From a virus, in the IMG/VR virus record IMGVR_UViG_3300025174_000095, positions 1 to 27,108 of that record: a stretch of 27,108 nt of DNA, one strand, 5' to 3'. The position numbers were made by a program, and so were the translations under genes. The notes below the pieces were generated by a model. It was given only the letters and a program-made list of their open reading frames with translations, was not told the origin of the DNA and searched no databases. How positions within the stretch are numbered: the first letter of the stretch is position 1; every line of letters starts with the position of its first letter. Of the stretch, positions 1,061 through 22,200 are shown one piece after another.

Positions 1061-1609
1061 TTGAATTTCGAGACCGTCTACGAAATTGAACCCAAGATTG
1101 CTAGGTGGTTTGGTATTCGCACACACCTCGTCGTACCCAATATTGGCTGGGGGCTGGGGTTTTCCTGGGAACTAGACTTGGCCGTAATGACAGCATCTGA
1201 TTATTTATATGAGGTCGAAATCAAAGTAAGAAAGCATGACCTTATTCGTGACCAAGAAAAGCGCAAATGGCTATTCTATGGGGGCGGCAAAATTAGAAAG
1301 CTCTGGTTTGCGATGCCAGAGAAACTGAGACCTCACATCGACTTTGTTCCAGAAATCGCAGGCATCCTGATTGTAAGTGGCGAGGGCAAGATTGAGGAAA
1401 TAAGGAAACCTGTCATTGATCAACGTGCCAGAAAACTCACAGACAAGGAGAAGTATCAATTGGCGAGGTTGGGCACGCTCAGAGTTTGGCAGGCTAAAGA
1501 AGAAATCGTAAGGTTGCGTAGGCGATTGATAAGGAGATGCGATGAGAAACCGACCCCGCCGCACGAAGAGACAGAAACTAATTCGCACGACGAAGAACCT
1601 ATTGGCTGA
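1061..1609 (+). CDS. PD-(D/E)XK-type nuclease-like protein (182 aa)
   Basis: The protein carries the layout of the PD-(D/E)XK nuclease fold: E37 and D39 (WELDLAV), then E53-x-K55 (YEVEIKV) on the next strand, followed by KHDLIRDQEKRK. This spacing is seen in MmcB-like and related small phage nucleases, which act on DNA. A basic helix (IVRLRRRLIRR) and an acidic, hydrophilic tail end the protein. The start is TTG, chosen because AGGAGG (1049-1054) lies 6 nt upstream and no in-frame ATG fits. The last 68 bp overlap the 44-aa ORF in another frame. Cutting activity is an inference; it could also be an inactive or structural member of the fold. Confidence 0.65.
   Translation: MNFETVYEIEPKIARWFGIRTHLVVPNIGWGLGFSWELDLAVMTASDYLYEVEIKVRKHDLIRDQEKRKWLFYGGGKIRKLWFAMPEKLRPHIDFVPEIAGILIVSGEGKIEEIRKPVIDQRARKLTDKEKYQLARLGTLRVWQAKEEIVRLRRRLIRRCDEKPTPPHEETETNSHDEEPIG
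1540..1561 (+). repeat. 22-bp direct repeat, copy B
   Basis: This is the second copy of the repeat at 1014-1035, with one mismatch (A for C after aaaccg). It lies at the start of the 44-aa ORF and inside the 3' end of the nuclease-like gene. Confidence 0.7.
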
Positions 1610-1676
1610 GAAGCTGGGGCGCCCGCCGAACGGGAAGGAACTCCGCAAGGAACTGGAGAAGTTTGGCATCCGATGA
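1542..1676 (+). CDS. Small basic protein (44 aa)
   Basis: AAGGAG (1530-1535) lies 6 nt before the ATG, and the stop overlaps the next ATG (ATGA at 1673), so both ends look like a real coupled gene although it overlaps the 3' end of the nuclease-like gene. The protein starts with a run of Arg and Lys (MRNRPRRTKRQKL) and ends with LAEKLGRPPNGKELRKELEK, which resembles part of a helix-turn-helix, though too short to assign. It would be expected to bind nucleic acid; this is an inference from charge. Confidence 0.5.
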   Translation: MRNRPRRTKRQKLIRTTKNLLAEKLGRPPNGKELRKELEKFGIR

Positions 1677-1882
1677 ACACCTTTATCCTCGATATTGATT
1701 TGGGTCGGATGAGGAGCCTCCCGCCGGAGGGATATTTTGAACGCCTTATCCAGAAAACCAATACCCAGAAGTATTCTTATTGGATTGATGAGATCGATGG
1801 GAAGTTCCGGGTCCAATGTGAGAACCCCCCGCAGGATGACCTCGGGCGGGGGATCTTGTGGCTACGTGAAAAAATAATGTAA
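1673..1882 (+). CDS. Hypothetical protein (69 aa)
   Basis: I do not recognise this 69-residue protein. It has no cysteine pair or membrane segment; the middle (YSYWIDEIDGKFRVQCEN) looks like two strands and the end (GRGILWLREKIM) like a helix. Its ATG overlaps the stop of the 44-aa ORF and the nearest GGAG is too far upstream, so it is probably translated by coupling. Its stop codon forms the first bases of palindrome site 2. Confidence 0.65.
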   Translation: MNTFILDIDLGRMRSLPPEGYFERLIQKTNTQKYSYWIDEIDGKFRVQCENPPQDDLGRGILWLREKIM

Positions 1883-1895
1883 GTAAGGCTTTCTT
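1881..1895 (+). repeat. Dispersed palindrome, site 2 (AAGTAAGGCTTTCTT)
   Basis: The site begins in the stop codon of the 69-aa gene and ends 11 bp before the -35 of promoter P2. It is identical to site 11 (24217-24231), and site 9 is the same sequence on the other strand. Of all copies it is the best placed to act as an operator. Confidence 0.85.
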
Positions 1896-1906
1896 TGTGT
1901 TCCCCC

Positions 1907-1935
1907 TTGACAAAATTGAATGAAAAGTGTAAGAT
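1907..1935 (+). promoter_or_regulatory. Sigma-70-type promoter P2
   Basis: TTGACA (1907-1912), 17 bp, TAAGAT (1930-1935). It lies in the only long gap of the left half, with palindrome site 2 just upstream. It would drive the small genes from 2035 and, through the continuous overlaps that follow, probably the whole glycosyltransferase operon. The start site would be near 1942. Confidence 0.8.
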
Positions 1936-1941
1936 GATGGC

Positions 1942-2034
1942 ATGGGCCCCCGGGCCAGAAAAGCAAACGACCCTCAAGCCGTGGACCTGGAAGGTCTTTT
2001 ATAGGGTCTTGAGGGCCGCGTAGCGGTGGGCGCT
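1942..2034 (+). ncRNA. Structured 5' leader after P2
   Basis: The roughly 90-nt leader can fold. GGCC (1945-1948) pairs with GGCC (1953-1956). CCCTCAAG (1971-1978) pairs with CTTGAGGG (2008-2015), enclosing a second stem GACCT (1984-1988) with AGGTC (1992-1996). The inner stem is followed by TCTTTTAT, so it looks like a weak intrinsic terminator nested in a larger stem. It may be an attenuator, an antitermination signal or only a stabilising leader. I recognise no known riboswitch or RNA family. Confidence 0.4.
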
Positions 2035-2196
2035 ATGGAAGAGTATACATCAATGGAGAAATCTGTCAAGCCTCCCCGCCCGACGAAGCTGTGGTCACAT
2101 CTTTGCGGCGGGAGGGTTTTGGAATATTTGTGGGTAACTCCCTGCCCGCATTGTGGAAAGGAAAGGAAGAAAGAAGATGACAGTCCCAAGGTATGA
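2035..2196 (+). CDS. Possible small zinc-knuckle protein (53 aa)
   Basis: This frame reads MEEYTSMEKSVKPP and later LCGGRVLEYLWVTPCPHCGK, ending SPKV. A single CPHC knuckle with an earlier Cys (LCGG) could bind zinc. The start has no good Shine-Dalgarno sequence (GGTGGG at 2025-2030 at best), and the end overlaps the next gene by 20 bp. It is supported mainly because it fills the space between leader and next gene and has a protein-like cysteine motif. Confidence 0.4.
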   Translation: MEEYTSMEKSVKPPRPTKLWSHLCGGRVLEYLWVTPCPHCGKERKKEDDSPKV

Positions 2197-2416
2197 CTTG
2201 GTAGTTCTTATAGACGGTGGGCCGGGGGCGGTGGGGGGATCCCGGTCAACCAGGATGTTTCATACGTTGGCATCAGCAAGGAAGGAGGCAGAGGAGGCCA
2301 TGCGGAGGGGGTGGTGGGACGAAAACATCCTTATTGCTCCTTGTCGGATAAGAAGCATAATCGTAGAGGAAATCGAACAGGAAGAAAAAGGAGAACAAGA
2401 TGAAAGTCAGGATTGA
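2177..2416 (+). CDS. Hypothetical protein (79 aa)
   Basis: I do not recognise this protein. It begins with a strand (YDLVVLIDGGPG), continues with a basic helix (LASARKEAEEAMRRGWWDEN) and a strand (RIRSIIVEEI), and ends in a highly acidic tail. The ATG at 2177 is preferred to the upstream in-frame GTG (2153) because purine-rich AAAGGAAGAAAG precedes it and the GTG form only adds a run of Lys and Arg. It overlaps the genes on both sides. Confidence 0.65.
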   Translation: MTVPRYDLVVLIDGGPGAVGGSRSTRMFHTLASARKEAEEAMRRGWWDENILIAPCRIRSIIVEEIEQEEKGEQDESQD

Positions 2417-2717
2417 AAAAACGGTTGAGGGGCTGGCGTTGGATAGGGTAGAGGACTATGGGTGCGGTAAAGAGGATGTTGTCAATCATGGGGTCTTTGT
2501 CTACTCCGACGAAAATGGGTGGTTCCTGAACGGGGATGAAGATGTTGATGAGGCCATCAAGCATTACGACGGGGACTTGAAGAAGATGCTCTCGGACATC
2601 TCCAAGAGTTTGGCGGGAGAGGTATCGAATGTTCGAGAAGCTGCCCGGGCGGACATTGAAGCCCTGTGGCTGGAGATTTCCGAACTGAAGCAGACCATCG
2701 CAGAATTGCAAGGATGA
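2400..2717 (+). CDS. Hypothetical protein with C-terminal coiled coil (105 aa)
   Basis: The first 60 residues are a mixed acidic domain (YSDENGWFLNGDEDVDEA). The rest is one long helix with heptad-like hydrophobics (SLAGEVSNVREAARADIEAL, then LEISELKQTIAELQ), so the protein probably forms oligomers. No family is recognised. AAGGAG (2389-2394) lies 5 nt before the ATG, and the stop overlaps the ATG of the GT4 gene (ATGA at 2714), placing it at the head of the glycosyltransferase operon. Confidence 0.7.
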   Translation: MKVRIEKTVEGLALDRVEDYGCGKEDVVNHGVFVYSDENGWFLNGDEDVDEAIKHYDGDLKKMLSDISKSLAGEVSNVREAARADIEALWLEISELKQTIAELQG

Positions 2718-3853
2718 GGCTGCTCTTCTTTTCCAACTCCCCCGCCGAGCCGACGGGGTATGGTACGCAGATGAAGTACATCCAGCGTTACCTCCCCCCG
2801 CTCGGCTACGAGGTCGCCTTCGCCGCCAACGTCGGGGTGGGGACGATGCGCATGGTCGGGAAGGGGATGTCGATCTATCCCGCCGGACGACGGACGAAGG
2901 CGGGAGACGATCTGGTATGGGCGGCGGTCGAGGATTTCAAGCCTGACCTAGTTATTAGTTTATATGACCCGTGGGCGCTGACTTTCCCCAAGGACATCGA
3001 AGTTCCATGGGTTTCCTGGGCGATTGTAGACAGCCTGCCGCTAGACTTTTTGGCAGTGCGGCGCCTACTTGAAGCCGATGGCATCGTCGCTTGTTCTCGC
3101 TGGGGAGAGAGATCGCTGAAACGTGCGGGCTTCGAGCCTGCGTACATCCCTCTTGGCATCCCAACAGATTTCTACGTTCCTGGAGACCGCTCTGCCGCCC
3201 GGGCGGGTCTGCACGACATCCCCGACGACGTTTTTCTTGTGACGATGGTTGGCAGGAACAACACCGTCCCCGCCCGCAAAGGCTTTGTGCAGGCCATCGA
3301 AGCCTTTGCTCCTTTTCATGCCCAGCATCCAAACACCGCCTTGTACCTTCACACCGGAGACGATGAATGGGAGGGGGGCATCAGCATCCGTTCGTTGGTC
3401 GAGGAGGTTGGCGGCGGGGGGATTTATTGGGCGGATCAGGCGCAGTACAAGTTGGGCTTGCCTGAGGGCGTCATGTTACAGATTTATCAGACCAGCGACG
3501 TGCTGCTCTTCCCATCCGACCGGGAGGGCTTTGGACTGCCCATCGTCGAGGCCCAGGCATGTGGGGTTCCTGTGATTGCGACCAATTGGGGGCCGATGAC
3601 TGAATTGGTCAAGGAGGCGGGGGGATGGCTGCTTCCAAGTTCGAGGGACTGGGGGCCGCACAGGTCGTGGACTCGGCGCCCGGGGGTCAAGCCGATTTAT
3701 CAGGCTTTGACATCGGCTTACAGGTCGTGGCAGAATGAGGAAGAATGGAACTACCGCAGGGAAGCTGCCCGGCGGGGGGCGCTACCGTATGACTTCAACA
3801 ACGTGGCGGGGGGATGGGATGAATATCTTAGGAGCAGAAAATGGCAAAACTGA
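2714..3853 (+). CDS. GT4-family glycosyltransferase (379 aa)
   Basis: This is a GT-B fold, family GT4 retaining glycosyltransferase, which moves a sugar from a nucleotide-sugar donor to an acceptor in the cytoplasm. The N-terminal half opens with a Rossmann strand (MRLLFFSNSPAEPTGYGTQM). The C-terminal half has the strand VFLVTMVGRNN, then SDVLLFPSDREGFGLPIVEA with the E-x7-E pair at E271 and E279, then CGVPVIAT and GPMTELV, all usual in GT4 donor domains. The length is typical. The ATG at 2714 overlaps the previous stop; an upstream in-frame GTG (2666) would add 16 unsupported residues. Donor and acceptor cannot be deduced. Confidence 0.88.
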   Translation: MRLLFFSNSPAEPTGYGTQMKYIQRYLPPLGYEVAFAANVGVGTMRMVGKGMSIYPAGRRTKAGDDLVWAAVEDFKPDLVISLYDPWALTFPKDIEVPWVSWAIVDSLPLDFLAVRRLLEADGIVACSRWGERSLKRAGFEPAYIPLGIPTDFYVPGDRSAARAGLHDIPDDVFLVTMVGRNNTVPARKGFVQAIEAFAPFHAQHPNTALYLHTGDDEWEGGISIRSLVEEVGGGGIYWADQAQYKLGLPEGVMLQIYQTSDVLLFPSDREGFGLPIVEAQACGVPVIATNWGPMTELVKEAGGWLLPSSRDWGPHRSWTRRPGVKPIYQALTSAYRSWQNEEEWNYRREAARRGALPYDFNNVAGGWDEYLRSRKWQN

Positions 3854-4152
3854 ACCTAAAAGAGATTGAGTGCGACTGGAAGGAACTGATTGACCCTACT
3901 AGTTCCCCCATGCCATTTGAGGAGTGGGAAGCTACATGGGACAGAATAGAGATTGCATTTCCCGCCCTTATCGCCAAAGTAAGGGAGCAGAACAAAGTGC
4001 TGAAAAAAGTTCAATTCAATTGGGAGTACCAAGAACGGACAGGCGGGAAGTATTTTACATCTGCTCCCACCGAACAGGAATACAAGAAGGACCACCAGAA
4101 ACTAACGGAAAAAATGGTGGCTGAGGCCCTCGCCGATTTGGAGGATGAGTAG
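3841..4152 (+). CDS. Hypothetical protein in the glycosyltransferase operon (103 aa)
   Basis: I do not recognise this acidic, mostly helical protein of 103 residues. It is rich in charged residues and Trp at the start (WKELIDP, FEEWEATWDRIE) and ends in a helix (KLTEKMVAEALADLEDE). AGGAG (3830-3834) lies 6 nt before the ATG, and it overlaps the GT4 gene by 13 bp. Its place between two glycosyltransferases is the only hint of function. Confidence 0.7.
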   Translation: MAKLNLKEIECDWKELIDPTSSPMPFEEWEATWDRIEIAFPALIAKVREQNKVLKKVQFNWEYQERTGGKYFTSAPTEQEYKKDHQKLTEKMVAEALADLEDE

Positions 4153-4155
4153 AAA

Positions 4156-5013
4156 ATGGTCCTCATAAGTGAAGAAATAATCCCAGAGGCTCAGGTGTTG
4201 GGACTTCCGTGGAGAACGGAAGATGGGAGGTCAAATCTCCCCCGGGTCGCAATCATCATTACCAATTTCAACATGCCGGAGAGGGCCGATGCCTTGGTCG
4301 AATACATTCAGGAATTTTGCTATTGGCCCAACGACATCTATCTTGTAGACAACGGCTCGGACATCATGCCCCCTGCCAAGCACACGACGGTTCGGCTTTC
4401 AGCCAATCTCCAAACGGTTGGAGGATGGTCGGCGGGGTTCGAGGCGGCAGACCGGGCCGAGGCCCGCAGGGGGTTCAAATACTTCGCTTATTGGGTAATG
4501 ATAACGAGTGCGGAGTTTCCCAAGCAGCCTCTATATGCAGATGTATTGACCGAACTTGTGGAAGTAATGTTGGCGAACGATGACATTGTTGGGATACATC
4601 CGGGATTAGACAGGTACAGCACGACTCATTGGAAGCATCTTTATGCAAGGGAGGCTTCCGACGGGCTGTGGGCTTGTAGACAAACCTGGATGATCGACAA
4701 TATCGCCGCATTGTGGCGGGCGGATTGGTTCAACTCGATTGGCCGCTTCGACCGCCGGCTGGAGTACGGGTGGGGGGTTGATTTGGAGACCTGCTATCTC
4801 GCTCGCAAGCAGGGAAAGTCGCTGTGGGTACACGACGGGGTTCTCATTCACAAAGAAACCGATATAGGCTACACTCTCGGGCGCATGGGGATGAGCGCAG
4901 AGGACCGCCGGCGGAGGGCGGCAGACAACATGAACAAAGTATTGACACGGAAGTACGGACCCGACTGGAGGAAAATGATGGAGAATGATTATGTCGAACC
5001 GGAGTGGAGATGA
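4156..5013 (+). CDS. GT2-like glycosyltransferase (285 aa)
   Basis: A GT-A fold, GT2-type inverting glycosyltransferase is suggested by the N-terminal Rossmann segment VAIIITNFNMPERADALV, then IYLVDNGSD (D65-D69) that binds the nucleotide, then NLQTVGGWSAGFEAA. Toward the end come NIAALWRADWFNSIGRFD and the acidic YGWGVDLETCYLA, laid out as in rhamnosyltransferase-like GT2 enzymes (a D/E-rich motif followed by a conserved aromatic). GGAGGA (4140-4145) lies 10 nt before the ATG. The stop overlaps the next ATG. Sugar specificity is unknown. Confidence 0.82.
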   Translation: MVLISEEIIPEAQVLGLPWRTEDGRSNLPRVAIIITNFNMPERADALVEYIQEFCYWPNDIYLVDNGSDIMPPAKHTTVRLSANLQTVGGWSAGFEAADRAEARRGFKYFAYWVMITSAEFPKQPLYADVLTELVEVMLANDDIVGIHPGLDRYSTTHWKHLYAREASDGLWACRQTWMIDNIAALWRADWFNSIGRFDRRLEYGWGVDLETCYLARKQGKSLWVHDGVLIHKETDIGYTLGRMGMSAEDRRRRAADNMNKVLTRKYGPDWRKMMENDYVEPEWR

Positions 5014-5846
5014 ACAATAAAGTAAGCCTTTCTTGCCCCCACTGCGGGGGGAGCATCGACTTATTTGCCTCAGAAGAAGAGGCCGCCCGGGAGAAGCGGG
5101 ACATTCCCATTTCCATTGTGTGCATAACCCGGGCTGACCCGCAGTTGCTCCCGCTTCTGGAGCAAATGTCCCAGGCCGCCGTGGAGATGGGCGGGGAGTT
5201 TGTTCTTGGGCTGGATTGGGAGCCGGATTTCGAGAAGGCTGATGACATCGCTCGCTACTCAGCTTTGTCAGGGCTTTCCAGCCGAATCATATTTGTAAAA
5301 TCGAAAGGATACGTCGAGAGTGTGTTGCAGTACGTCATCGACAAATGCAAGGGGGAATGGATATTCAGACTGGATGATGACGAAGGGTTGACCCCGGCGG
5401 GGTGGGAGTGGATGAAAGAGAGGAAGTATGAGGCAAATGACAATTGGCTGATCCCAACGGCGGCGCTGTGGGGGGACGATGAACACTTTATTACCTCCCC
5501 GCCTTTCTGGGCCGACCGTCACATGCGTTTATCGAGATGGGACAAGATTGGAACCTGGCCGGATGCCCCCCATGCACACCCGGGCTTTGACCATTCCAGA
5601 TTGCCGACAACCCCCTTCGCCATCCTGCACTACAAGTATCTGCTTCGCAGCTACGAAGAGCGGAGGGATGATGCAGAGGTTCGGGAGGCCCTTGTCGAAG
5701 ACGCCGGGCTAGGAAAGCGGACGGTGTACAGCCTCCCCGAGGATGTGCTGCCGTATTTGATTCTCCATCCGGTTGGGGATGGGATCGTATCTACCGTCAA
5801 GAGTGGAGATGGGGTAAGAGTCGATGTCGCTCGCAAAGAGAGTTGA
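5010..5846 (+). CDS. GT2-like glycosyltransferase with N-terminal Cys knuckle (278 aa)
   Basis: The core is a GT-A domain: PISIVCITRADPQLLPLL, then FVKSKGYVESVLQYVIDKC and the metal-binding RLDDDEG (D122-D124), followed by the acceptor-side region with FWADRHMRLSRW and ILHYKYLLRSYEER. Before it sits a CPHCGG knuckle (C9, C12), only half of a zinc ribbon because no second pair is visible. I choose ATG 5010, which overlaps the previous stop by 4 bp, with GGAG at 5001-5004; an in-frame GTG at 5004 is possible. Palindrome site 3 lies in its first codons (read as K-V-S-L-S). Confidence 0.8.
   Translation: MNNKVSLSCPHCGGSIDLFASEEEAAREKRDIPISIVCITRADPQLLPLLEQMSQAAVEMGGEFVLGLDWEPDFEKADDIARYSALSGLSSRIIFVKSKGYVESVLQYVIDKCKGEWIFRLDDDEGLTPAGWEWMKERKYEANDNWLIPTAALWGDDEHFITSPPFWADRHMRLSRWDKIGTWPDAPHAHPGFDHSRLPTTPFAILHYKYLLRSYEERRDDAEVREALVEDAGLGKRTVYSLPEDVLPYLILHPVGDGIVSTVKSGDGVRVDVARKES
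5020..5034 (+). repeat. Dispersed palindrome, site 3 (AAGTAAGCCTTTCTT)
   Basis: This copy lies just inside the 5' end of the GT2 gene, about 10 bp after its start codon, a position where a bound protein could block transcription or initiation. Confidence 0.8.
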
Positions 5847-6882
5847 GGAAAGTTTGACACGCAGCAGTTTCCGGGTTGTCTTGCTGGGATACACCAGCAC
5901 CAATCCCATTCACACGAACTACTGGCCGTGGGGGATGTTCGCCAAGGTCCTGAAAGATCTGGGGTACACGGTCGAATGGAAGGAATTGGAGGACTGCCGC
6001 AGGGGTCAGGGACATCCTCGCATTTTCATCTGCTGGAACAAACCCAACGCCCAGGACATTATCGAGGCGGGCGTCTATCAGCCGGGGGATGTCATTTTGC
6101 AGAAGGTAACTTCCCTCGGGCGGGGGGACGATGGGGTAAGTTGGGGGGACGACCCGCTCGGGTTCTTCAAAACTTGGACGTGGCCGACGTATCAGATGGT
6201 CGAGCGGCTTCTCGACGGGGGGAAGAACATTTACGCTTTTGGATGTCGGACGAACGTAGACCTGTTTCCTGAAAAGAAGAGAATTTGCAAGAAGCTGGGA
6301 AAGCGGCTGTTCTGGATCCCCTGGGGGTCGAGCCTGTTTACCTGGAACGAGATTGTCAACGCCGCCCCAAAGATGGGCGGGCTGGCTTACGACGTTTGCT
6401 TTGTGGGATCGGTGTGGGGGCAGGAGGGGCGGGGGAACATCGAGTCTTTCATTGATTACGTCAGGCCGCTTCTGCGCGGGTCTTTGTACTTGTTGGCGGG
6501 GCGGGGGACCGCCCGGGGGGTCGTTTCCAATCAGGAACACAAGCAGATGCTCCAGATGTCAACGCTGTGCCCGATTATCAATGCTCCAAGCTGGAGAGCC
6601 GAGCGGGGGGTCCAGGACCGTTTCTGGTCGGTATTTACCGCCGGGCGGTTCGGGGTCGTAGACTCGGAGGGGGTTTACGAATTTTTCGATGAGAAGGATG
6701 TCGTATGTGAAACCGACCCGGGGGAGTACATCGAGAAGTCCAGGTTCTTTCTGGAAAACCCGGCGGCGCAGGTCCCATACATCGAAAAGATACAGAAGCG
6801 AATCAAGGAAGAATACAACTACTATCATACGTGGGCGAACATTATCGACACGATTATAAGGAGAGAAGGCAGTGGACGGTAG
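5824..6882 (+). CDS. CgeB-like glycosyltransferase (352 aa)
   Basis: The protein has the look of a GT-B enzyme of the CgeB / Glyco_trans_1 group. An N-terminal Rossmann strand is followed by TNYWPWGMFAKVLKDLGYTV. The middle has RLFWIPWGSS and YDVCFVGSVWG. The C-terminal half has APSWRAERGVQDRFW, GRFGVVDSEGVYEFFD (about residues 274-288), a DPGEYIEK loop and a helical tail ending in YNYYHTWANIIDTII. CgeB-type proteins transfer sugars and in Bacillus are linked to spore crust glycosylation. It overlaps the GT2 gene by 23 bp; the Shine-Dalgarno is weak (GGTAAGAG). Assignment is by motif layout, not by a search. Confidence 0.72.
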   Translation: MSLAKRVEESLTRSSFRVVLLGYTSTNPIHTNYWPWGMFAKVLKDLGYTVEWKELEDCRRGQGHPRIFICWNKPNAQDIIEAGVYQPGDVILQKVTSLGRGDDGVSWGDDPLGFFKTWTWPTYQMVERLLDGGKNIYAFGCRTNVDLFPEKKRICKKLGKRLFWIPWGSSLFTWNEIVNAAPKMGGLAYDVCFVGSVWGQEGRGNIESFIDYVRPLLRGSLYLLAGRGTARGVVSNQEHKQMLQMSTLCPIINAPSWRAERGVQDRFWSVFTAGRFGVVDSEGVYEFFDEKDVVCETDPGEYIEKSRFFLENPAAQVPYIEKIQKRIKEEYNYYHTWANIIDTIIRREGSGR

Positions 6883-7519
6883 GCCAGAAGAGATGTTTCA
6901 TTTGGGGGAGGGATACAAGATGGGGATAGAGATTGCCCAGACAATCAGAGACGGCGGGATATTGGGAAGAATTGCTGGACTTAGACATGACATGGGGGTT
7001 CTGTCCGAGGCCGTCTTCCGGGCGGGGGATGGAGACCATGTTGAGATTGGAACATTGTATGGGGCGTCGGCCATCCAGGTCGCCTTGGTCAAGAAGCACT
7101 TCAACCTAGGCGGGGATGTTTACTGCATCGATCCCTTCGACGGATACTATGGGCCCGGACGGATGGACGGAAGCGGGGTCCCAGTTGTTGCTGAAACCTT
7201 TCTGAAGAACTGTACTACCTTCGGTGTTTTGGATAGGGTTGTGCCAGTGGCGAAGAAGTCAATCCCATGGCCGCTGGGGGACAAGAAGTTCGTTTCTGCC
7301 TACGTTGATGGAGATCATGATGGAAAGGCTCCATGGAAGGATATTGAGATTTGCAGGTATGCCGGGGCGAGATATATTGTTGTTGACAACTATGACACCT
7401 TGCACTCAGCGGTAAGAGATGCTTGTATGACAGCGGCGTGGGGGGAATATCAGATTGCAGATGCAGTTCACATAAGTGGCATTACCTGTGTATTGGAGAC
7501 GTTGAATGAACATAAGTGA
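6872..7519 (+). CDS. SAM-dependent methyltransferase, Methyltransf_24-like (215 aa)
   Basis: This is a class I methyltransferase fold. Motif I is HVEIGTLYGASAIQVA (G60 in the SAM loop), motif II is VYCIDPFDGYYG, and then come FVSAYVDGDHDGKAPWKDIE and YIVVDNYDTLHSAV. The VDGDH...D pattern is typical of the Methyltransf_24 group, which often sits in sugar-modification clusters and O-methylates sugars or small acceptors. GTG (6872) is chosen as the start because AAGGAG (6858-6863) lies 8 nt upstream; the next ATG (6893) has no such site. It overlaps its neighbours by 11 and 14 bp. Confidence 0.82.
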   Translation: MDGRPEEMFHLGEGYKMGIEIAQTIRDGGILGRIAGLRHDMGVLSEAVFRAGDGDHVEIGTLYGASAIQVALVKKHFNLGGDVYCIDPFDGYYGPGRMDGSGVPVVAETFLKNCTTFGVLDRVVPVAKKSIPWPLGDKKFVSAYVDGDHDGKAPWKDIEICRYAGARYIVVDNYDTLHSAVRDACMTAAWGEYQIADAVHISGITCVLETLNEHK

Positions 7520-8111
7520 TTTCTTCCATGTAGACGACCCCCACACCAGAAAGTGGGAGGGACACAACCTCCCGGCGGGGTGGTGGAGCAGGCACTATGA
7601 ATACCCATGGGCAATCCAGTGGGCGAGGCCGCACATGACGGTTATGGATGCGGGGACGGGGCAGGTCTTCAGCCCCTTCCGCTACGTCTTGGCAGACAAA
7701 TGCCGGGAGGGCATTGCGGTAGATACGAAGGAGCCCGAGGACGTAAAGAACTGGCCCCAGAACCTCAGCTTTACCGACGCCGATCTGGCCGGCCCGGGGT
7801 CGGACATCTTTGATTATTTTGATGCCATCTTCTGCATCAATGTCCTACCGGAGGTTGACAGAATTGGAATGGTTCTGAAAAATTTCGCCCAGTGGCTCAA
7901 GACGGGAGGCATTGCCGTTCTGACCTTCGATGTACAATATGAGATGGATAAACCCCTCGGGGCGCCGGGGGTTGACATCCTCGACTTTCACCGGGCAGCT
8001 ATGGATGCCAAACTGAAACATCAGGAAGAAAACTACTGGGGCAGTAAGGAAAATGCCTTGCACCATCCGGTCTTCAATCTCTGTATCTACCATGCGGTGT
8101 TGAAGAAATGA
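7506..8111 (+). CDS. SAM-dependent methyltransferase, class I (201 aa)
   Basis: Motif I is TVMDAGTGQVFSPFRYVL (D48, G50, G52), an acidic loop (IAVDTKEP) follows, then the motif IV region FDYFDAIFCINVLPEV and post-motif strand LKTGGIAVLTFDVQYE. This is the layout of Methyltransf_11/25-type small-molecule or glycan methyltransferases. GGAG (7495-7498) lies 7 nt before the ATG. Its stop codon is part of palindrome site 4. Target unknown; the setting suggests a sugar. Confidence 0.8.
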   Translation: MNISDFFHVDDPHTRKWEGHNLPAGWWSRHYEYPWAIQWARPHMTVMDAGTGQVFSPFRYVLADKCREGIAVDTKEPEDVKNWPQNLSFTDADLAGPGSDIFDYFDAIFCINVLPEVDRIGMVLKNFAQWLKTGGIAVLTFDVQYEMDKPLGAPGVDILDFHRAAMDAKLKHQEENYWGSKENALHHPVFNLCIYHAVLKK

Positions 8112-8117
8112 TTTCTT
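8103..8117. repeat. Dispersed palindrome, site 4 (AAGAAATGATTTCTT)
   Basis: This symmetric copy is extended to GAAGAAAT-G-ATTTCTTC (8102-8118), a perfect palindrome around one base. It covers the methyltransferase stop codon and ends one base before the GGAGG of the next gene, so a bound protein or RNA stem there could affect initiation. Confidence 0.85.
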
Positions 8118-8130
8118 CGGAGGCAGTGCT

Positions 8131-8571
8131 ATGAGTGTAATTGTGTGGGACGGAAAAACTTTGGCGGCGGACAAACAGTCAACCATTGGTGGAACCGTCT
8201 TTACGGTCACAAAGATAAAGAAAATCAGAGGGCATCTTGTTGGAGTTGTTGGGAATACTGACCAGGTTCAAGAACTGTTCCGATGGTTCGATGGGGAAGA
8301 GAAGGAAGACAAGTGGCCGAAATTTCAAGAAGATCCGAATACCATGTCCCACCTTTTAGTTATCGAGCCGCCCGGGAGGATTTGGAAATACGAGACACGG
8401 CCCATCCCTTTTGAAGTTGAGCAAGATTTTTATGCTATGGGAAGTGGGCAGGATGTTGCCATCGGCGCCCTGACGGCGGGGGCCGACGCCAAAAGAGCAG
8501 TAGAGATTGCATCTCAATGGGAGGCTGAATGTGGGCAGGGGGTAGATGTGTTGGAGTTGGGCGATGGATAA
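8131..8571 (+). CDS. Proteasome/HslV-like Ntn-hydrolase (146 aa)
   Basis: The first 60 residues follow the proteasome beta/HslV pattern: MSVIVWDGKTLAADKQST, then VTKIKKIRGHLVGVVGN. Compared with HslV, D14 takes the place of the conserved Asp17 and K28 that of the catalytic Lys33. The residue exposed after Met removal is Ser2, not the Thr normal in HslV. Such HslV-like proteins occur in several phages with unknown substrate, and may be peptidases or acylases acting in virion maturation or host takeover. GGAGG (8119-8123) lies 7 nt before the ATG. It is short for the family (about 175-200), so the C-terminal helices may be reduced. Confidence 0.7.
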   Translation: MSVIVWDGKTLAADKQSTIGGTVFTVTKIKKIRGHLVGVVGNTDQVQELFRWFDGEEKEDKWPKFQEDPNTMSHLLVIEPPGRIWKYETRPIPFEVEQDFYAMGSGQDVAIGALTAGADAKRAVEIASQWEAECGQGVDVLELGDG

Positions 8572-10228
8572 ACTCTACATCGGCATGGTTACGTTTGGAA
8601 ATCTGCCTTACACGAGGATGGCGATACAGTCGTTGATGGAGACAGCGTCTCCCCCCGCCGAGTTTGTGGTTGTGGTTGGGAAGCCGGGGGATGAAGAAAC
8701 GGTTTCTTATTTAGACGGCATCCCAGAAGAAAACGAGGAGGGGGATTCAATTATTATTTTGAAGAGACATCCAACCAACCTCGGCTTCCCCTGGGGCATA
8801 AACGATATTATGCAGTATGTGTTCAAGATGGCGGGGGCAGATAAACTCCTGATCGTGGGGAATGATTGCATTGCCTATCCTGACGCAGTTGACGAGTTGC
8901 TCTATGTGGCGGCGGCTTACCCGGACTTCGATTATTTTTCTGGAACAGAAACGAAGTCTGTATGGTTCAAAGACAAGTATCCCCACAGATCGAGCATGAT
9001 AAATCCCGATGGAGTTCTGAATGTTGGGGGGGTTGGGTGGGAACCATATTACTTCAAGGAACATCTGGCACATTGGGAAGATGTGAAGAGAAATTCTTCG
9101 CTGTGGGGGAAGGTCAAAGAGATTACTTACATCAATGGCTTCCACAACTTTGCCCTGATAAGAAAGTCTTACTTCGACAAGGTTGGGTACGTTGACCCCG
9201 CCTTCTTCCCGGCCTACTATGAGGACGTTGACTACGTGCGGCGGGGGAGGCTGGCGGGGTGCAAGTTCGCCGAGGTCCCTATGGCTCAGTATTTTCACTT
9301 CGAGAGTACAACCATCAAAACCGAGACCGGGGACATGCACCGCCGTTATTTCCCTCTAAACCGCCGATATTACGAGGAGAAGTGGGAGGGCGGGCCGGGG
9401 GAGGAATTGAACGTGCGCCCCTTTGCTGGCCGGACGACCCGGCACGGAAGGGTGTTGGCCTCGGCGGAACATTTCGACTTGAAAGAAAGAAACGACATCT
9501 TCGAGCGGGGGATGGTTGACTACATGAAATGGACGCCGGCGGGGTTCAAGGACTTGCACAAAGGACAGCGATGTGTCATTGCCTGCAACGGGCCAAGCCT
9601 GAACGACGTAGACATGGATCTCCTGCGGGGGGAGATTGTCTTCGGATTGAACCGTGGATACATGAAGAACAAGCTGCCAATGACGTATCAGGTTGCTGTC
9701 AATCTGAATGTGTTGCATCAATGGGGAGAAAAAATTGTTGACTATCATTTTTTGGGGGACGGGGCATGGGATGTGATTCCGACTTTCATTCCCCATGGCC
9801 TTGATGAGTTCTGGCACCCCCACGTCTACGGATTGCTTTTTGGGCCGCCGGAGGAGAGGTTTTTCAGCACAGACATCGATCGGCCAATTTACCAAGGTCA
9901 CACGGTTTCCTTCGTCGCCCTCCAGATTGCCTACTACATGGGATTTTCAGATGTTATAATGGTGGGGATGGACCATCACTACCCCCGGGCGGAGGGTCAT
10001 CCTACGAACACTCCGATTGAGAGCAAAGGACCCGATACCGACCACTTCCATAGCGAATACTTTCCGGTGGGGTCCACGTGGGAGACGCCGAACCTGGGGA
10101 GGTCCGAAGAAGCCTACCGCATGGCCCTGGAAGCATACACGGCGGCGGGGAGGCAAGTCGTCAACGCCAGCACATTCAGCAGGTGCGACGTTTTTCCTCG
10201 GGTAAGTTTAGAGGAGGCATTGAGATGA
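8564..10228 (+). CDS. Two-domain glycosyltransferase: GT2 fused to DUF115/GT42-like domain (554 aa)
   Basis: Residues 1 to about 270 form a GT2 rhamnosyltransferase-like GT-A domain: YIGMVTFGNLPYTRMAI, TNLGFPWGINDIM, KLLIVGNDC, NFALIRKSYFDKVGYVD and PAYYEDVDYVRRGRLAG (E220-D223). Residues from about 330 form a second domain with CVIACNGPSLNDVDMDLL, IVFGLNRGY, then QGHTVSFVALQIAYYMGFSD and VIMVGMDHHY, then HFHSEYF. That order matches DUF115/MptE-like and Maf proteins and the GT42 sialyltransferase CstII (GNGPSL at the N-terminus, a late GxD). ATG 8564, not 8546, is chosen: GGAG (8553-8556) lies 7 nt upstream. It is the last clear gene of the glycan operon. Palindrome sites 5 and 6 lie inside it. 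Confidence 0.8.
   Translation: MDKLYIGMVTFGNLPYTRMAIQSLMETASPPAEFVVVVGKPGDEETVSYLDGIPEENEEGDSIIILKRHPTNLGFPWGINDIMQYVFKMAGADKLLIVGNDCIAYPDAVDELLYVAAAYPDFDYFSGTETKSVWFKDKYPHRSSMINPDGVLNVGGVGWEPYYFKEHLAHWEDVKRNSSLWGKVKEITYINGFHNFALIRKSYFDKVGYVDPAFFPAYYEDVDYVRRGRLAGCKFAEVPMAQYFHFESTTIKTETGDMHRRYFPLNRRYYEEKWEGGPGEELNVRPFAGRTTRHGRVLASAEHFDLKERNDIFERGMVDYMKWTPAGFKDLHKGQRCVIACNGPSLNDVDMDLLRGEIVFGLNRGYMKNKLPMTYQVAVNLNVLHQWGEKIVDYHFLGDGAWDVIPTFIPHGLDEFWHPHVYGLLFGPPEERFFSTDIDRPIYQGHTVSFVALQIAYYMGFSDVIMVGMDHHYPRAEGHPTNTPIESKGPDTDHFHSEYFPVGSTWETPNLGRSEEAYRMALEAYTAAGRQVVNASTFSRCDVFPRVSLEEALR
8694..8708. repeat. Dispersed palindrome, site 5 (AAGAAACGGTTTCTT)
   Basis: Symmetric copy, two perfect 6-bp arms around CGG, inside the two-domain glycosyltransferase gene and read there as E-E-T-V-S. 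Confidence 0.75.
9160..9174 (-). repeat. Dispersed palindrome, site 6 (AAGAAAGTCTTACTT)
   Basis: Asymmetric copy in reverse orientation, inside the same gene as site 5 but in a different codon phase (read as R-K-S-Y). Conservation is therefore at the DNA level. Confidence 0.75.
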
Positions 10229-11262: not shown

Positions 11263-12819
11263 TTGAGGCCCTTTGTTGATTGGATCGACAACGCGGGTTT
11301 CTGGGTTTCCGAGACCTGGGATATAGAAAAGAAAGAGTGGGTGGGGGCGGGGTGGTTGAAACTCTTTCCTGAACAGCGGGCCATCTTCGAGTATTGTCTG
11401 ACCCCCGACGCCGAGGGGAAGTTTCCCTATACGACTCTGCTCTTCAGCACCACGAAAAAATCTGGGAAATCTACCCTGGCTGCGGCGGTTGCTCAGTGGT
11501 GTGCAGAGGAACTCCCGCCGGCCTCCGAGATTTTCGTTTGTGCTAACACCCAGGAGCAGGGAGAGGGGCGGGTCGGCAAGGACTTGAAATATCACATTGA
11601 CCACTCGGGGCGGGTCTATTTGAACAAGGAGGGGGAGGAAGAAGATGCCAAGGTAACACAGTGGGGGATCAAATATCCGAACGGGACGCTCATCGGCATC
11701 CTCGCCCAGAACTATCGCTCCGCCGCCGGGTCCAGACATGCTCTCGTTGTGTGGGATGAGTTGTGGGGGCGGGAGACAGAGGCCGACCGCAAGATGTGGG
11801 ATGAACTGACCCCCATCCCGACCGTGCCGGTCAGTCTCCAATTCATCGCTACCTACGCCGGATATGAGAACGATTCCAAATTGCTGTGGGATTTGTACTT
11901 GCAGGGCGTAGGAAAGGACGAACACAAAGATGGGCAGGGGGAGCCCATCCCCGAACTGGAGGGGCTGCCCTGTTGGAAGAATGGGAAGCTGTTTACTTTT
12001 TGGGACCATGAGAACCGGATGCCCTGGCAAACCCAGGAGTATCTGGATGACGAACTGGCCCGCAACCGCCCATCGGCTTACCTGCGCTTCCATGAGAATC
12101 AGTGGGTAACGTCTCACGAAATCTTCATCCCAATTGAGTGGTGGGACTTGGCGGCGAAGGCGTATGAGAAAGATGCAATTCTTTGGAACGATCATCCTTA
12201 TCGCCAGTATCCGGTGTTCATTGGCATTGATGCCGCAGTAAAGAAGGACAGCACGGCAGTCGTTGGGGTTTGCTACGATGCCGCCGAGGGAGTCGTCGTC
12301 GAGATATTCCGCAAGATTTGGCAGCCGACTACGGGGGAGATTTTTAGCCTCCAGGATACCGTTGGAGAATTTGTGAAATCCGTGTATAATGACTTCAACG
12401 TGCAGAAGGTCGTGTACGATCCGACCCACATGCACGAAACGATGTCCAGCTTGGTCAAAGAGGGGATACCGATGGAGCAGTATGTCCAATCCCCCGGCAA
12501 CATGATTGCTGCAAGCCAGGCGTTTTATGATTTGCTCCAGAAGGGAGCCTACAAGACCTTCCCTGGGGAAGATGCCCGCCGCCACATTCAGATGGCGGTT
12601 GCACAGGAGACGGGGAGGGGATTTCGTATTGTCAAGGACAAACAGAAACGGAAGCATCCAATCGACTACGCGATTGCCGCAGCGATGGCCTGCAAAGCCT
12701 CTCTTGATTCCGGCGGGGTTGATGTTGTGAAGCCCATTCGCATACCGTCGAATTTCTCTGACTCTTCTGCATGGCGGGAGGACGACCAATCCTGGTTGCC
12801 CTTCCCGCTCCAGGACTAG
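11263..12819 (+). CDS. terL: Terminase large subunit (518 aa)
   Basis: This is the packaging motor ATPase and nuclease. The ATPase domain has a Walker A of the phage type (STTKKSGKST, S62-T71, Lys69) and Walker B VVWDE (D165, E166), followed by a coupling segment (SLQFIATYAGYEND). The RNase H-like nuclease domain has FIGIDAAVKKDS (D323), VVYDP (D386) and HPIDYAIAAAMA (D468), three likely metal ligands. The start is TTG with GGGGAG about 8 nt upstream; the first in-frame Met is near residue 178, inside the ATPase domain, so TTG is needed. No small terminase subunit was recognised. Confidence 0.93.
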   Translation: MRPFVDWIDNAGFWVSETWDIEKKEWVGAGWLKLFPEQRAIFEYCLTPDAEGKFPYTTLLFSTTKKSGKSTLAAAVAQWCAEELPPASEIFVCANTQEQGEGRVGKDLKYHIDHSGRVYLNKEGEEEDAKVTQWGIKYPNGTLIGILAQNYRSAAGSRHALVVWDELWGRETEADRKMWDELTPIPTVPVSLQFIATYAGYENDSKLLWDLYLQGVGKDEHKDGQGEPIPELEGLPCWKNGKLFTFWDHENRMPWQTQEYLDDELARNRPSAYLRFHENQWVTSHEIFIPIEWWDLAAKAYEKDAILWNDHPYRQYPVFIGIDAAVKKDSTAVVGVCYDAAEGVVVEIFRKIWQPTTGEIFSLQDTVGEFVKSVYNDFNVQKVVYDPTHMHETMSSLVKEGIPMEQYVQSPGNMIAASQAFYDLLQKGAYKTFPGEDARRHIQMAVAQETGRGFRIVKDKQKRKHPIDYAIAAAMACKASLDSGGVDVVKPIRIPSNFSDSSAWREDDQSWLPFPLQD

Positions 12820-16210: not shown

Positions 16211-19200
16211 GTGCCTGTGCCTGTTTCTCCGTATACCGGAAGACAGCCTGTAGCGGGGGGTGATAGGGACGAAAAACCTACGACTCCCCCGCCCGAAGAG
16301 TCTGTTTTCTCCGGTTTCTATGAGGCCCTCTACGGACCCGGGTCTACTTCTCCCCCAACCGCCCCGCCGGGGGAGACAGCCAGCCCGAGCGAATACAAAG
16401 AGCGCATCGCCGCCGCATTGGAGCAGTCCCGCAAGTCCAAGGTCGAGTCTCAATCTACTGTTCCAGATTTCAAGATCGGCGGGCGGGTCTATTTGGACAA
16501 AGAAACCGGCCAGCTAACTCAGGAGAAGACCAAATATCCAGCCTATTGGGACGCCAGGGAGAAGAAAGTAACCATCGAACCAACTCCCATCCCGTTTTTG
16601 TGGGGAATGATTGGTTCGATGCAGACGATCCAGGAAGCCTACAAGAAGATGTTCCCAGAAGCTACCAAGGAAGGCAGCACCGTGTCTTTGTGGCAGGGGC
16701 TTTCTGGCCCCTTCACACCTAATCTTGAGGCCAAGCAAGCCGCCTATGAGTTTGTGAGATCAGGCATCCCGGGCCTGGCGCCTCCCATGGCAGGGCCCCC
16801 CAAACCGGGGGAGGAGGCGTGGTACGAAGAGGGAGAAGCTTATCCTGAGCAATATCGTACACCCATAATGGGCATCCTGACCCCAGAGTGGGCGACTCCA
16901 ATTGTGGACTTCTGGCAGGAGACAATCGTTCCGGCGGCTAAGAGCGTCGCAACAGCGATAGGGTGGTTGGCTGTGCCTGGAATTATGTCGCTTGGAAAAG
17001 CCAACGAGGAATTAGAAAAGCGAGGGGTCAATTTTGCCGGGGCGTTGACAATGGCTTGGGAGGCGACCGGCATCCCAGGGGCCATAACCGGGGATGTTTA
17101 TTACATCCCCAAAGAGGGGGGAGAAACAACCTTTGAAGGATTGGAGGCGGCAACGCCTTTTGGGGGATTGGAAGAGGCGCCGAAGACCTTTTGGGAAAAA
17201 GCGATTTGGGGACTGCGCTGGGGGGCGGAGATCTTTATCGAAGCAGAGGGGCTGTCCCTAACAACAGCCCCAATTGTCAGGCTGGCATTTGCTACCGGAG
17301 GTGTGCTTCTCAACGCAACGCAGTGGGCGGCGGGGAAGTTTTTCCTCAATTCAATTGCATTTGGTGTAGAGAAGCTGGGCGGGGAAGAAGCCGCAGATAA
17401 AATGCGGGCTGTCACGGACAAGCAAAAGGCGGATTTGGATTTCTGGTGGATGATAAGCGGGGAGGCGACCAAGGCCATTATTGAAGGCGAGGATTACGAG
17501 GATGCGTGGATTTCAAAGATGGCCCCAGAAAAAGCTGCCATTGTTGAGGCCCAAAATGCCCTTATCCCGCCCTCCCCCGGGAAGCTGGACCAACTAATAA
17601 TCGACTTCAAAGCCGCCCAGAAAAGGGCGGAAGGACAGGCAGCCGCACTCCGCCAAAGTGCGAGGATTCTTTATACCGCCGCCGAGAACGCTGAACAATT
17701 CAACCGGGCGCTTGATCTGACCCGCCAGGCCATTGAATTGGACAGGCTGTATGGATGGGATTGGTTGAATCCGTACAATGCCTGGACGTGGCAGTTGGAG
17801 GGGGAGGATCAACAGGAAAAATTCCTGCGGGCGGTTGCCTGGGCGGAGTTGCAGCGTGGCCGGCCACTTACCCGCTACGAGATTGTGCAGATTCGAGATC
17901 GCTTTGTTTCGGCGGGAACGGAGTTGGCGGGGGAGATGGTATTCGACTTGCTGAATTTTGTCCCGGCTAAAGTTTTTGATTTCCTTCTTGTGACCCCCGC
18001 CAAGGCATTGGGGATTGTAGCCAAGGAAGTTGGACTGAAGACCCCGATTGTCGGCAGCATCATGCGGTCGGTAATGAAGTCGGCAACTCGGTCGGTTGGG
18101 TACAAAATCGAGCGGGCGGCTATCATTCTTTTCAACGACGTGGCGGGGGGCGCCAAGAACTCGGATGACCTCATTGACCGACTTGGGCGCATGGGGGATT
18201 TGGTCGATGATTTCAACGCCGGAAAGATTGCCGAGGCAGAAATGACCGATGGACTGCGGGAGATTACCCCCCGCCTCAACCGAACTGCCCCAGTGTTGGT
18301 CAAGACTGGCAAGATGCCTGCGCTGTCCAAAATTCCTCGGGTTGACAGTTTTGGAGATTGGATACGGACGACGTTGGCATCGGCAACAGATGGCTTAGTC
18401 AAAGCCTATATGGATGACATCTACGAAAATGCCTATCGCGCTCGTGGGCTAAGGGGCATGGGTAACACCGCCAAAGTGTTCGCTGACGCAATGGCGGAGG
18501 CGGCGGCCAAGGCGGGGAAGAAAGCCAAGCTGGAAGATATTGTCGCTCTGCTTGATCCCGAGATAAAGAAACAAGCCAGGAAGATTGCTTCCAGCCAGGT
18601 ATCCGACCCAAAGTTGCTGGCGAGGGGGTTTGGACAGTCCTTCCGTGAGGCGTACTGGGAAGCAAACCGAGCGTGGACGGGGAGCAAGTTGCTGAAGGGA
18701 CAAATCCTTGGGGAATTGGGGGCGAAGGTTCCTTGGACTCGGGGGGCCATCAATGCAACGACCTACCTTACTGACCTTATTTTTCGAGCCTGGGTAAGTG
18801 CGGTGCTGACGACCCGCCCCGGCTGGGTCATGTTCAACTATATTGACTCGGCTGCCCGCTTCGTTATTATGGGTGGGAGCCTTCTTGATGATTTGGCGAC
18901 AACGACCGCCGGACTTATTGATAATGGCTTCGGCATTGACCCGAACTTCCTAGGTATCCGATTGGGATTAGGGGACGAGAAATGGTCGGAAATTGCGGAA
19001 CAGATCGCTCGGGGAGAGGGGCCCAAAGTCTACAACTGGCTTACCGCCCCGGTTGCCGGAACCATCCAGAGGATCGGGAAGCTGTTCGGGCAGGATTGGC
19101 TGCCGGGGGTTGCTTATACCAAATGGACACAGGTGACGACAGCACTGAATGACAGCATCGAGTTTTCTCTGCGGATACGCCTGTTTGCCAAGAAAGCCTA

Positions 19201-22200
19201 CGAGATTACCAACACCCTCGACCCCATCGCTCTCGACCGGATGCTGGCGCAAGTGCCGGAGAAGTTGCAGCCTCTTTACAAGCAGATGTGGATAGAAAGT
19301 GGGAACAACCCGGACAAGTTCATGGCTCTTGTGGATTCGTGGGCGGGGGGCGTCGGACAGAAGCCCGGCTGGGCATTGACCATCCCGGAAGAATTGTTGG
19401 ATACCCCCATCGGACACACCGCTCAGGACCAGCAGCAGATCCTTGGGGCCATCAATAAAGAGATGCGGGAACTGGTGAGCGCCAAAGCCGCCCGCAAAGA
19501 AAGCCTTACTTTGGAGGACATCGACAATCTTTTCGATGACATCTTGGACAGTTTCCGCAAGCGGTATGAGGAAATCGCCAACTCCCGGGGGCGGCTGGGG
19601 GAACTGAGCAACGATTTCACAGGGAAGGTCAACATGGACGAACCCTTCCCGGAGAGCGTAATTCCTCCTCCGCCGAGGACAGATGCCGACATTGCCCGGC
19701 AACTGGACGAACTGCCCCGAGGGGGCATTCCTGAAAATATCGAGGGGGCCGTTGATGAATATATCAACCAAGGCATCATGGATGGGAGGACTCCTGAGCA
19801 GCGGGCAAACGTCGAACTCCGTAGCCAGGCATCCAAGACTCTGGATGACTTTGCTTTTGGGTTGACCCCCAAAGTGCCGGAGGGGTGGGAGTTCCCGAGG
19901 GCTCTTGCCGTCCAACAATACCTGGGGGATTACAGCAAGAACATCGACGAGAACTATCGCTTTGTTCAAGACTTGGTTTATCGTTATGTGAATCCAGAAC
20001 AATACAAGTCCGGCTCTCAAGAATGGCGGTTGGCCTGGGATAACTATTTTGATTTCGTAGACTCCATCAAGACCAAGGAGATCTCCATCTTCAATTCGCT
20101 TCTTGATGCCGCTCGGACGGGGGACTTCGAGAGCCTGCCCAAGCCAATGACGGTCAAAGAGTATCTGGCTGAGATGGGAATTACTTACGAGCAGGCCCAA
20201 ACCAAGGTGGGATGGAAGATTACTATTGAGGCCCCCTGGGGGAAAGTGACCAAGACGAGTTGGAAAGCCCGGGGATGGTTGCTCGAACCCTACAAGAACG
20301 TAGGCATCACCCTGATTGACGATCTGGAAAATGCTGTCCTCGTGCGGCGAGTCGAAGATATACAGAAGTATGCCGAAGAAATCGCCGCCGGGATGTCACC
20401 GGAGGCGGCCTACTTTGGCGGAAAGCTACCAACCTCTGAGGCGCTGACGAAGAAATTTGGAGATTACGAACCTTTGTCTTGGGAAGTTGAACTCAATAAA
20501 CAGTGGGATGATCTCAGCATCAACAAGCCAGAGCTTCGATTCATATTCAAGGGAGACGATGACCTTTTACCAAACATTCTTCGTCGGATTTCTGAGAAAG
20601 GATATGCAACTTTCGACGAGGTAGCGACCCTATTCGACAACTTGGACGACCCTATGGCGGTGGCGTTGTGGTCATGGATTGATTTTGACGACAGCTGGAA
20701 AGGATACCTTCCTGCATTGGCCGAGCGGTATTCAAAAGAAGCGAAGACGATACAGCAGCAGACGTGGTGGGTGTTGATGAACAAGTATGGGGATAGTGTC
20801 ACAGGCTACCCGAAGACTATAGAACTCTACCGAGCAGTGGCAGAGGGGCGTCCGCTACGCGATTGGGACTCTTTTACCACCAGCAAAAGAGTGGCGGAGA
20901 AGTTTATGGGTAAGGCAGCAAACCAACTAAACAATCCAAAACTGGTCAGGGTTGAAGTTCCCATCGAGAACATCTTTGTTTCTTATGACTCCCATGCCGC
21001 CTTCCACCGCTTTGTGGATGAGCAGGAATTTATCATCAAGAACTTGGACAACGTAAAGATTCTTGAGGGGGGAGAAGAAATCCTTACTTTGACTTCCCAG
21101 CAAAAATTGGATAATCTCTCCACGATGGCGAAGCAGGATATGGATGCCTTCTGGAAGGCGTGGGCGAAAAATAACGAACTGGATTTTCTGTATGGAGAGC
21201 CGGCGGGGAGCTACGAAAACTTTGCTTCCTACCTGCGAAAAGAAATCCCCCGGGCGACGAAGAAATTCGGTAAGGACTCGGAGATGGTCAGGTTCCTGGA
21301 ATGGAGGCTGGCGCAGGCGGAGCAGACGATGGCTGCTACAGCTTCCTTCCTATACCCCGAGGCGATGGGAATGGTCCCCCCGCCGGTCCCGGTATGGGAG
21401 ATGCCGGAAAGCGCCGCCACAAGGCTTTTAGCCCAGGAATATCTTGGAACCCACTTCAGGAAAATCGAGCAGGGGCTCGACATCTTCCGCAATGCAACCA
21501 AGCAGGCGCTTGAGAGTGGAGCCTTCTATGATGCCACCAAGTACACCGCCGACGAGATAGCTGACCTGCGACGGCTCGTGCGGGACGGGGCGGTTTGGAA
21601 GCAGGAAATCATCGACGTTGCCCGCAATGGAGGCGTTAGCCAATTGATGCCGACGATGAGCTTCGAGGGGGCGGCGCCGTTTACCAATCGCACCATGATC
21701 GACTACACCGACTTCAGCGCCTTCGACGAGGGGATGAGGAACTTCTTCCCCTTTTGGAAATTCTACAAGAACTCCATTCCCTTCTGGATTGAAACGATGG
21801 CTTTGCATCCAGAGATTGCCGCCTTCTATACCAAGTACCTGCGATATACAGACCGGATTGCCTGGTCGGAGGGGGCCATCAACTCCCGGGGCGAGACGCT
21901 TCCATCATTGAAAGGAAAAATACGCATCCCGGGGACAGACATCTGGGTAAATCTCTCCGCCCCGTTCTCCCTGCGCTTTGTTTTCCCGAGGCTGTACCAG
22001 CCCTATGAGGACCAGGATGAAGAGCAAATGGGACCGTTGGGAAAGACAGTGAAGTGGCTATATGATTTTGGTTCGGAGCGGGGGCTGTCGATTGCTCCCT
22101 GGACTGCCGCCCTGCTTTATGGGACGGGGGTTTTGAATCAGGCCGAAAATCCGAAGTGGTCAGTGTTCCCTATGGCGCAACTTGTCCCCCCAAACTGGCA

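Follow-up and report, generated by a model that had tools for sequence, protein, structure and literature searches.

We analysed a 27,108-base stretch of DNA from an uncultured virus (IMG/VR record IMGVR_UViG_3300025174_000095, the whole of it called the window below), in which a tightly packed operon of nine genes, rich in glycosyltransferases and methyltransferases, precedes the head genes. All nine open reading frames (ORFs) were verified, and the dense packing reported in a preliminary description of this DNA was borne out, with overlaps at six of the eight internal junctions. In order, the junctions are a 13 bp overlap, a 3 bp gap, overlaps of 10, 23, 11 and 14 bp, a 19 bp gap and a 26 bp overlap. 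The final gene is listed from 8546 but probably begins at the ATG at 8564, which is preceded by GGAG; with that start the last overlap shrinks to 8 bp. Small flanking genes overlap the operon through ATGA at both ends (by 4 bp at the first gene), so the string of overlapping genes extends beyond the nine. Its genes and domains are as follows.

2714-3853, plus strand: GT4 (GT-B) glycosyltransferase (PF00534, 1e-17; phrog_2170, 4e-36)
3841-4152, plus strand: orphan of 103 amino acids (aa; no PHROG match, Pfam matches sub-threshold only)
4156-5013, plus strand: GT2a, a GT-A glycosyltransferase (AlphaFold model and Foldseek; relatives in viral loci)
5004-5846, plus strand: GT2b, a GT2-like glycosyltransferase (invariant RLDDDE, N-terminal CxxC; homologues in cassettes at 27-38%)
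5824-6882, plus strand: CgeB-like GT-B glycosyltransferase (Glyco_trans_1_2, PF13524, 1e-9)
6872-7519, plus strand: class I methyltransferase (Methyltransf_24, PF13578, 6e-6)
7506-8111, plus strand: class I methyltransferase (Methyltransf_11/23; PF13489, 3e-5; Methyltransf_11, 4e-4)
8131-8571, plus strand: HslV-family N-terminal nucleophile (Ntn) hydrolase (phrog_1040, 3e-33)
8564-9541, plus strand: N-terminal GT2 domain of a two-domain glycosyltransferase (PF00535, 4e-4; phrog_29879, 5e-14)
9542-10228, plus strand: C-terminal GT42/Maf-like domain, predicted transferase for an ulosonic acid activated with cytidine monophosphate (CMP) (profile and fold match)

Domain and fold calls agree with the five glycosyltransferases and two methyltransferases counted before, next to one Ntn-hydrolase and one orphan. 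The five glycosyltransferase proteins hold six glycosyltransferase domains: the preliminary description had missed that the C-terminal half of the last gene is a separate, GT42-like transferase. Three near-identical contigs exist for the window, and one of them, of 30,048 bases, lengthens the sequence by ~9.4 kb of further, largely structural-type genes, to ~36.5 kb in total of an incomplete genome. Neither a nucleotide-sugar synthesis gene nor a DNA-hypermodification gene was recognised in the window or in the 9.4 kb beyond. The reported lack of nucleotide-sugar genes holds for this part of the genome, and host supply of the donors, as proposed, is consistent with these genes. Membrane segments are predicted for none of the operon proteins, which fits cytosolic protein glycosylation.

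No family in the operon is linked to phage capsid genes as tightly as GT4. When IMG/VR was searched with a profile built from three GT4 proteins, at least 596 stretches contained the family; the best 80 GT4 loci, together with named phages, were annotated by iterative profiles. In 76 of 81 loci the stretch with GT4 also holds a head gene, at a median distance of ~0.7 kb. The genes typically run portal, protease, capsid, a gene of ~130 aa, GT4, a variable set of GT2, methyltransferase or epimerase genes, and then neck and tail genes. We also ran a capsid-seeded scan with seeds taken from GT4-bearing loci, which recovered capsids down to ~40% identity. GT4 lies just downstream in 57 of 57 distinct capsid loci of this seeded family (44 of 44 among those with at least 2.5 kb of downstream sequence). 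Among named phages, the capsid gene of Pontimonas phage phiPsal1 is followed directly by GT4 (31% identical to that of the window), a methyltransferase, a GT2 and a neck protein; Microcystis phage Mae-JY09 has one small gene between its capsid gene and GT4 (37% identical) and an epimerase nearby; and in Synechococcus phage S-CBS4 a GT4, a GT2 and a methyltransferase lie between portal and capsid. These loci contradict the earlier statement that such an operon is rare in a head-gene neighbourhood, as does the published gene block of phage Corndog (PMC4351075). In one locus (L039, 4667-9783) the GT4 cassette stands between capsid and neck genes and includes an ORF that gives the impression of a radical-SAM protein, with a CxxxCxxC-type motif near its start.

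The capsids themselves offer a hint as to where a glycan might be attached. Many capsids of the GT4-linked family end in a tail like DA[ST]xP[TS], and one paper places mycobacteriophage virion glycans at the C-terminal ends of capsid and tail-tube proteins (PMC12619734); we regard the motif as a pointer to a glycosylation site and not as evidence. The share of Ser and Thr is raised at the capsid C-termini (0.21 versus 0.15), which is a hint only because there are no cassette-free capsids of the same family for contrast.

Most other members of the operon recur in cassettes of the same kind. When genes 3-7 and 9 were searched directly by tblastn in 50,697 phage genomes, no matches appeared, and single-gene searches of named phages found little except for GT4 and HslV; relatives of most of genes 3-7 and 9 surfaced only through GT4 neighbourhoods. 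GT2a has counterparts in 20 viral loci, and the 13 that were aligned show 45-57% identity. Most of them come after the capsid gene, whether or not a GT4 is present, and in many cases the next gene is a methyltransferase related to one of the two in the window. Relatives of the methyltransferase at 6872-7519 adjoin GT2a in L054 and L118-L122, and those of the methyltransferase at 7506-8111 (about 1e-34) lie directly 3' of GT2a in L079, L125, L126 and L051. GT2b and the GT42-like domain recur in the same kind of cassette. Relatives of the GT4, GT2a, GT2b, the two methyltransferases and the GT42-like domain of the window are all present in capsid-linked cassettes, with identities of up to 57%. 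The CgeB-like glycosyltransferase has no relative in the phage collection or in the cassette loci. In L137 and L142 (5598-12201), a large ORF and ORFs of ~245, ~410 and ~113 aa are followed by GT42-like, GT2b and a 639-aa GT4; order and sizes resemble the window head module plus cassette, with head genes that lack clear sequence homology.

For genes 4156-5013 and 5004-5846, Pfam matches are absent or sub-threshold only. GT2a has no Pfam match at all and is unrecognised by every family library used; its AlphaFold model (pLDDT 87) finds a polypeptide GalNAc-transferase as best Foldseek match (E 8e-10), and the solved folds closest to it are enzymes that glycosylate polypeptides. In place of the usual metal-binding DxD, GT2a and its relatives have a conserved ITS(A/T)E (ITSAE in the window). 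That GT2a initiates the glycan on a protein is our guess.

The C-terminal half of the last gene carries the Pfam label MptE-like (PF01973, 2e-8). When a profile of 20 homologues was searched, however, the GT42 sialyltransferases CstII (2e-7) and CstI (2e-6) ranked first, followed by structure 5mu5 (9e-5), which we take to be the flagellin transferase Maf, though its record calls it an uncharacterised protein. We rejected an identity as the pterin diphosphokinase MptE, as 8sd5 scored E 0.48 in the same search. CstII (1ro8) is also the sole Foldseek match below 1e-3 for the AlphaFold model of the domain (pLDDT 88; 4e-4, probability 1.0), with a moderate TM-score of ~0.5 and ~13% identity. An NGPSL-like motif is common to the domain and to GT42/Maf enzymes, and a His is invariant in the family (H168 of the domain, within DxxHF); it is a candidate for the catalytic His known from CstII, its place on the CstII sequence being insecure in the profile alignment. 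In an NCBIfam search of the last gene the sole match was the Kdo transferase WaaZ, far under the cut-off. Among 16 distinct loci with the GT42-like domain, 6 have a gene for a CMP-sugar cytidylyltransferase; among 110 cassette loci without the domain, none has one (Fisher P-value 1.6e-6, biased upward since the search profile was built from 4 of the same loci and the 110 loci are incompletely de-duplicated). Judging from these matches and neighbouring genes, the domain probably transfers a CMP-activated ulosonic acid. It differs from CstII, CstI and Maf by its fusion to a GT2 domain that has relatives among the cassette GT2 proteins of phiPsal1 and S-CBS4; the reverse fusion is present in L132, L133 and L136. 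The window has no CMP-sugar synthetase gene, so the host would supply the CMP donor. CMP-Kdo is made by most Gram-negative bacteria and is one candidate. CMP-sugar synthetase genes accompany the GT42-like genes of L131 and L135, a short distance before a ~520-aa ORF that has the size of a terminase but no Pfam match. The L135 cassette (1591-8957) encodes a nucleotidyltransferase, a CMP-sugar synthetase, NeuB, two GT42-like proteins, a GT2 and a sulfotransferase, and judging by these genes its phage may make its own nonulosonic-acid donor. What is new here is the GT42-like domain, with its neighbouring CMP-sugar synthetases in other phages, and the strength of the GT4-capsid linkage; the openly licensed literature yielded no account of either the linkage or a GT42-like cassette member.

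In the window, the last glycosyltransferase ends ~1 kb before the terminase large subunit (TerL) gene, on the same strand. The head module that starts there runs TerL, portal, a 2764-aa protein, a scaffold-like protein and the major capsid protein, portal and scaffold being assigned partly by position.

11263-12819, plus strand: TerL, start of the head module adjoining the cassette (phrog_9, 3e-33)
25359-26387, plus strand: major capsid protein, candidate acceptor (phrog_1357, 8e-34)

The C-terminus of this capsid protein, EHTNSFSDS, is Ser/Thr-rich. The cassette is missing from two incomplete contigs related to the window by terminase and portal, L007 and the 36.7-kb one of L008; either the lineage of the window gained it, or the relatives lost it.

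Known systems offer partial parallels. In mycobacteriophage Corndog an O-methyltransferase and three glycosyltransferases lie between portal and protease, and capsid modification has been proposed (PMC4351075). By the published description of the gene block, the Corndog/cluster O genes (O-methyltransferase gp35, glycosyltransferases gp36-gp38) share with the window a methyltransferase and several glycosyltransferases in the structural region; they differ in having three glycosyltransferases instead of five, in lying between portal and protease, and in that no GT42-like domain is mentioned there. Mycobacteriophages supply the nearest precedent from experiment: Che8, Corndog and Myrna are reported to carry glycosylated virion proteins (Freeman 2023, as cited in PMC12363180, PMC12619734 and PMC11256854). 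The cassette GT2 family profile matches Che8 gp108 and gp109 (5e-9 and 8e-8, search size set to 10), whereas gp108-gp110 lie at the right genome end, away from the head genes, and have no GT4 or GT42-like match. The phiPsal1 cassette shares GT4, a methyltransferase and a GT2 whose relative in the window is the N-terminal domain of the last gene, but consists of three genes only, placed after the capsid gene and not before TerL.

Overall, we suggest, with a probability of roughly three in four, that the operon is a virion-glycosylation cassette, which would build a short methylated glycan on a phage structural protein. By analogy with the Corndog block, it can be viewed as an enlarged and differently placed variant of the head-linked cassettes. 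Soluble cytosolic enzymes would use host nucleotide sugars to assemble the glycan, the two methyltransferases would methylate its sugars, and the GT42-like domain is the predicted enzyme for attaching an acidic ulosonic sugar, either sialic-acid-like or Kdo, with a CMP-activated donor. The window phage thus very probably coats its own virions with a methylated glycan, which may end in a sialic-acid-like sugar, and the short methyl-capped product proposed earlier is supported. We infer a virion protein as acceptor (the capsid protein or one of its neighbours being likeliest), the order of the sugars, host supply of the donors, and the purpose, which might be shielding from host defence or the environment, or altered adsorption. 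Several observations weigh against this interpretation. The cassette lies upstream of TerL and not beside the capsid gene; its CgeB-like glycosyltransferase, orphan and HslV-like gene are found in no related cassette; and the invariant GT4-capsid pairing, whose seeds came from GT4-bearing loci, holds for that capsid family and not for that of the window. GT2a lacks the usual DxD aspartates and resembles GalNAc-transferases at the level of fold only (~15% identity), and both glycan and glycoprotein are here predicted from gene content.

Besides virion proteins, which we favour, the preliminary description had named host surface glycans and DNA bases as possible targets. The enzymes might remodel a host lipopolysaccharide (LPS), capsule or teichoic acid and block superinfection, as in serotype conversion. 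Loci for surface polysaccharides typically contain GT4, GT2 and GT42 enzymes and sugar methyltransferases, and among the matched enzymes GT42 members and WaaZ act on lipooligosaccharide and LPS. We nevertheless consider this unlikely: the absence of predicted membrane segments means that no GtrA/GtrB-like pair (flippase and polyprenyl-sugar transferase of the gtr type) is present, and cassette genes occur in the structural module of many different phages. A loose set of horizontally acquired genes without a joint pathway appears more improbable still. Cassettes do differ greatly in content from phage to phage, and for three of the nine genes other cassettes hold no partner, but the genes overlap, their reading frames are intact, and adjacencies such as GT4-GT2a-methyltransferase recur in several loci. 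The least probable of these readings is glycosylation or hypermodification of phage DNA bases against restriction. Some phage glycosyltransferases do act on DNA (Pyle 2024, as cited in PMC12619734), and the window GT4 weakly matches the GT4-conflict family (2e-6); yet the known part of the genome contains no recognised base-hypermodification gene, and DNA modification does not predict a long multi-enzyme cassette, a sialyltransferase-like domain or linkage to capsid genes.

Virion glycosylation is documented in few phages. Bacteriophages are described as not typically glycosylated (PMC11256854). The near-fixed linkage of GT4 to one capsid family across environmental phages suggests that virion glycosylation is common, and the idea can be tested in the isolated phages phiPsal1 and Mae-JY09. 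A broader and tentative proposal, to which we give somewhat less than even odds, is that capsid glycosylation by a capsid-linked GT4 is obligate in many uncultured tailed phages, some of which, including that of the window, add a sialic-acid-like or Kdo sugar through a GT42-like enzyme as well as O-methyl groups. If true, a phage enzyme that places sialic-acid-like sugars on capsids would bear on host and immune recognition of phages and on glycoengineering.

The 103-aa orphan has no relative in any cassette locus. The HslV family has relatives in 434 phage records, and none were found when sought in the cassette loci. In the window protein, Ser and not Thr follows the start Met, so that Ser2, after Met removal, is a candidate nucleophile; the two relatives checked start with MSVV and MTTI, that is, one with Ser and one with Thr. 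A scan of genome contigs gave no host assignment, with just 4 distant loci in metagenome-assembled genomes. The 2764-aa ORF between portal and scaffold (16211-24505) has no PHROG match and is homologous (~24-29%) to similar giant ORFs of L008 and L009. In the structural region of the extended contig (L109, 10517-12043), a 508-aa ORF encodes a DUF559 endonuclease-like domain that is apparently split by an intein-like splicing domain.

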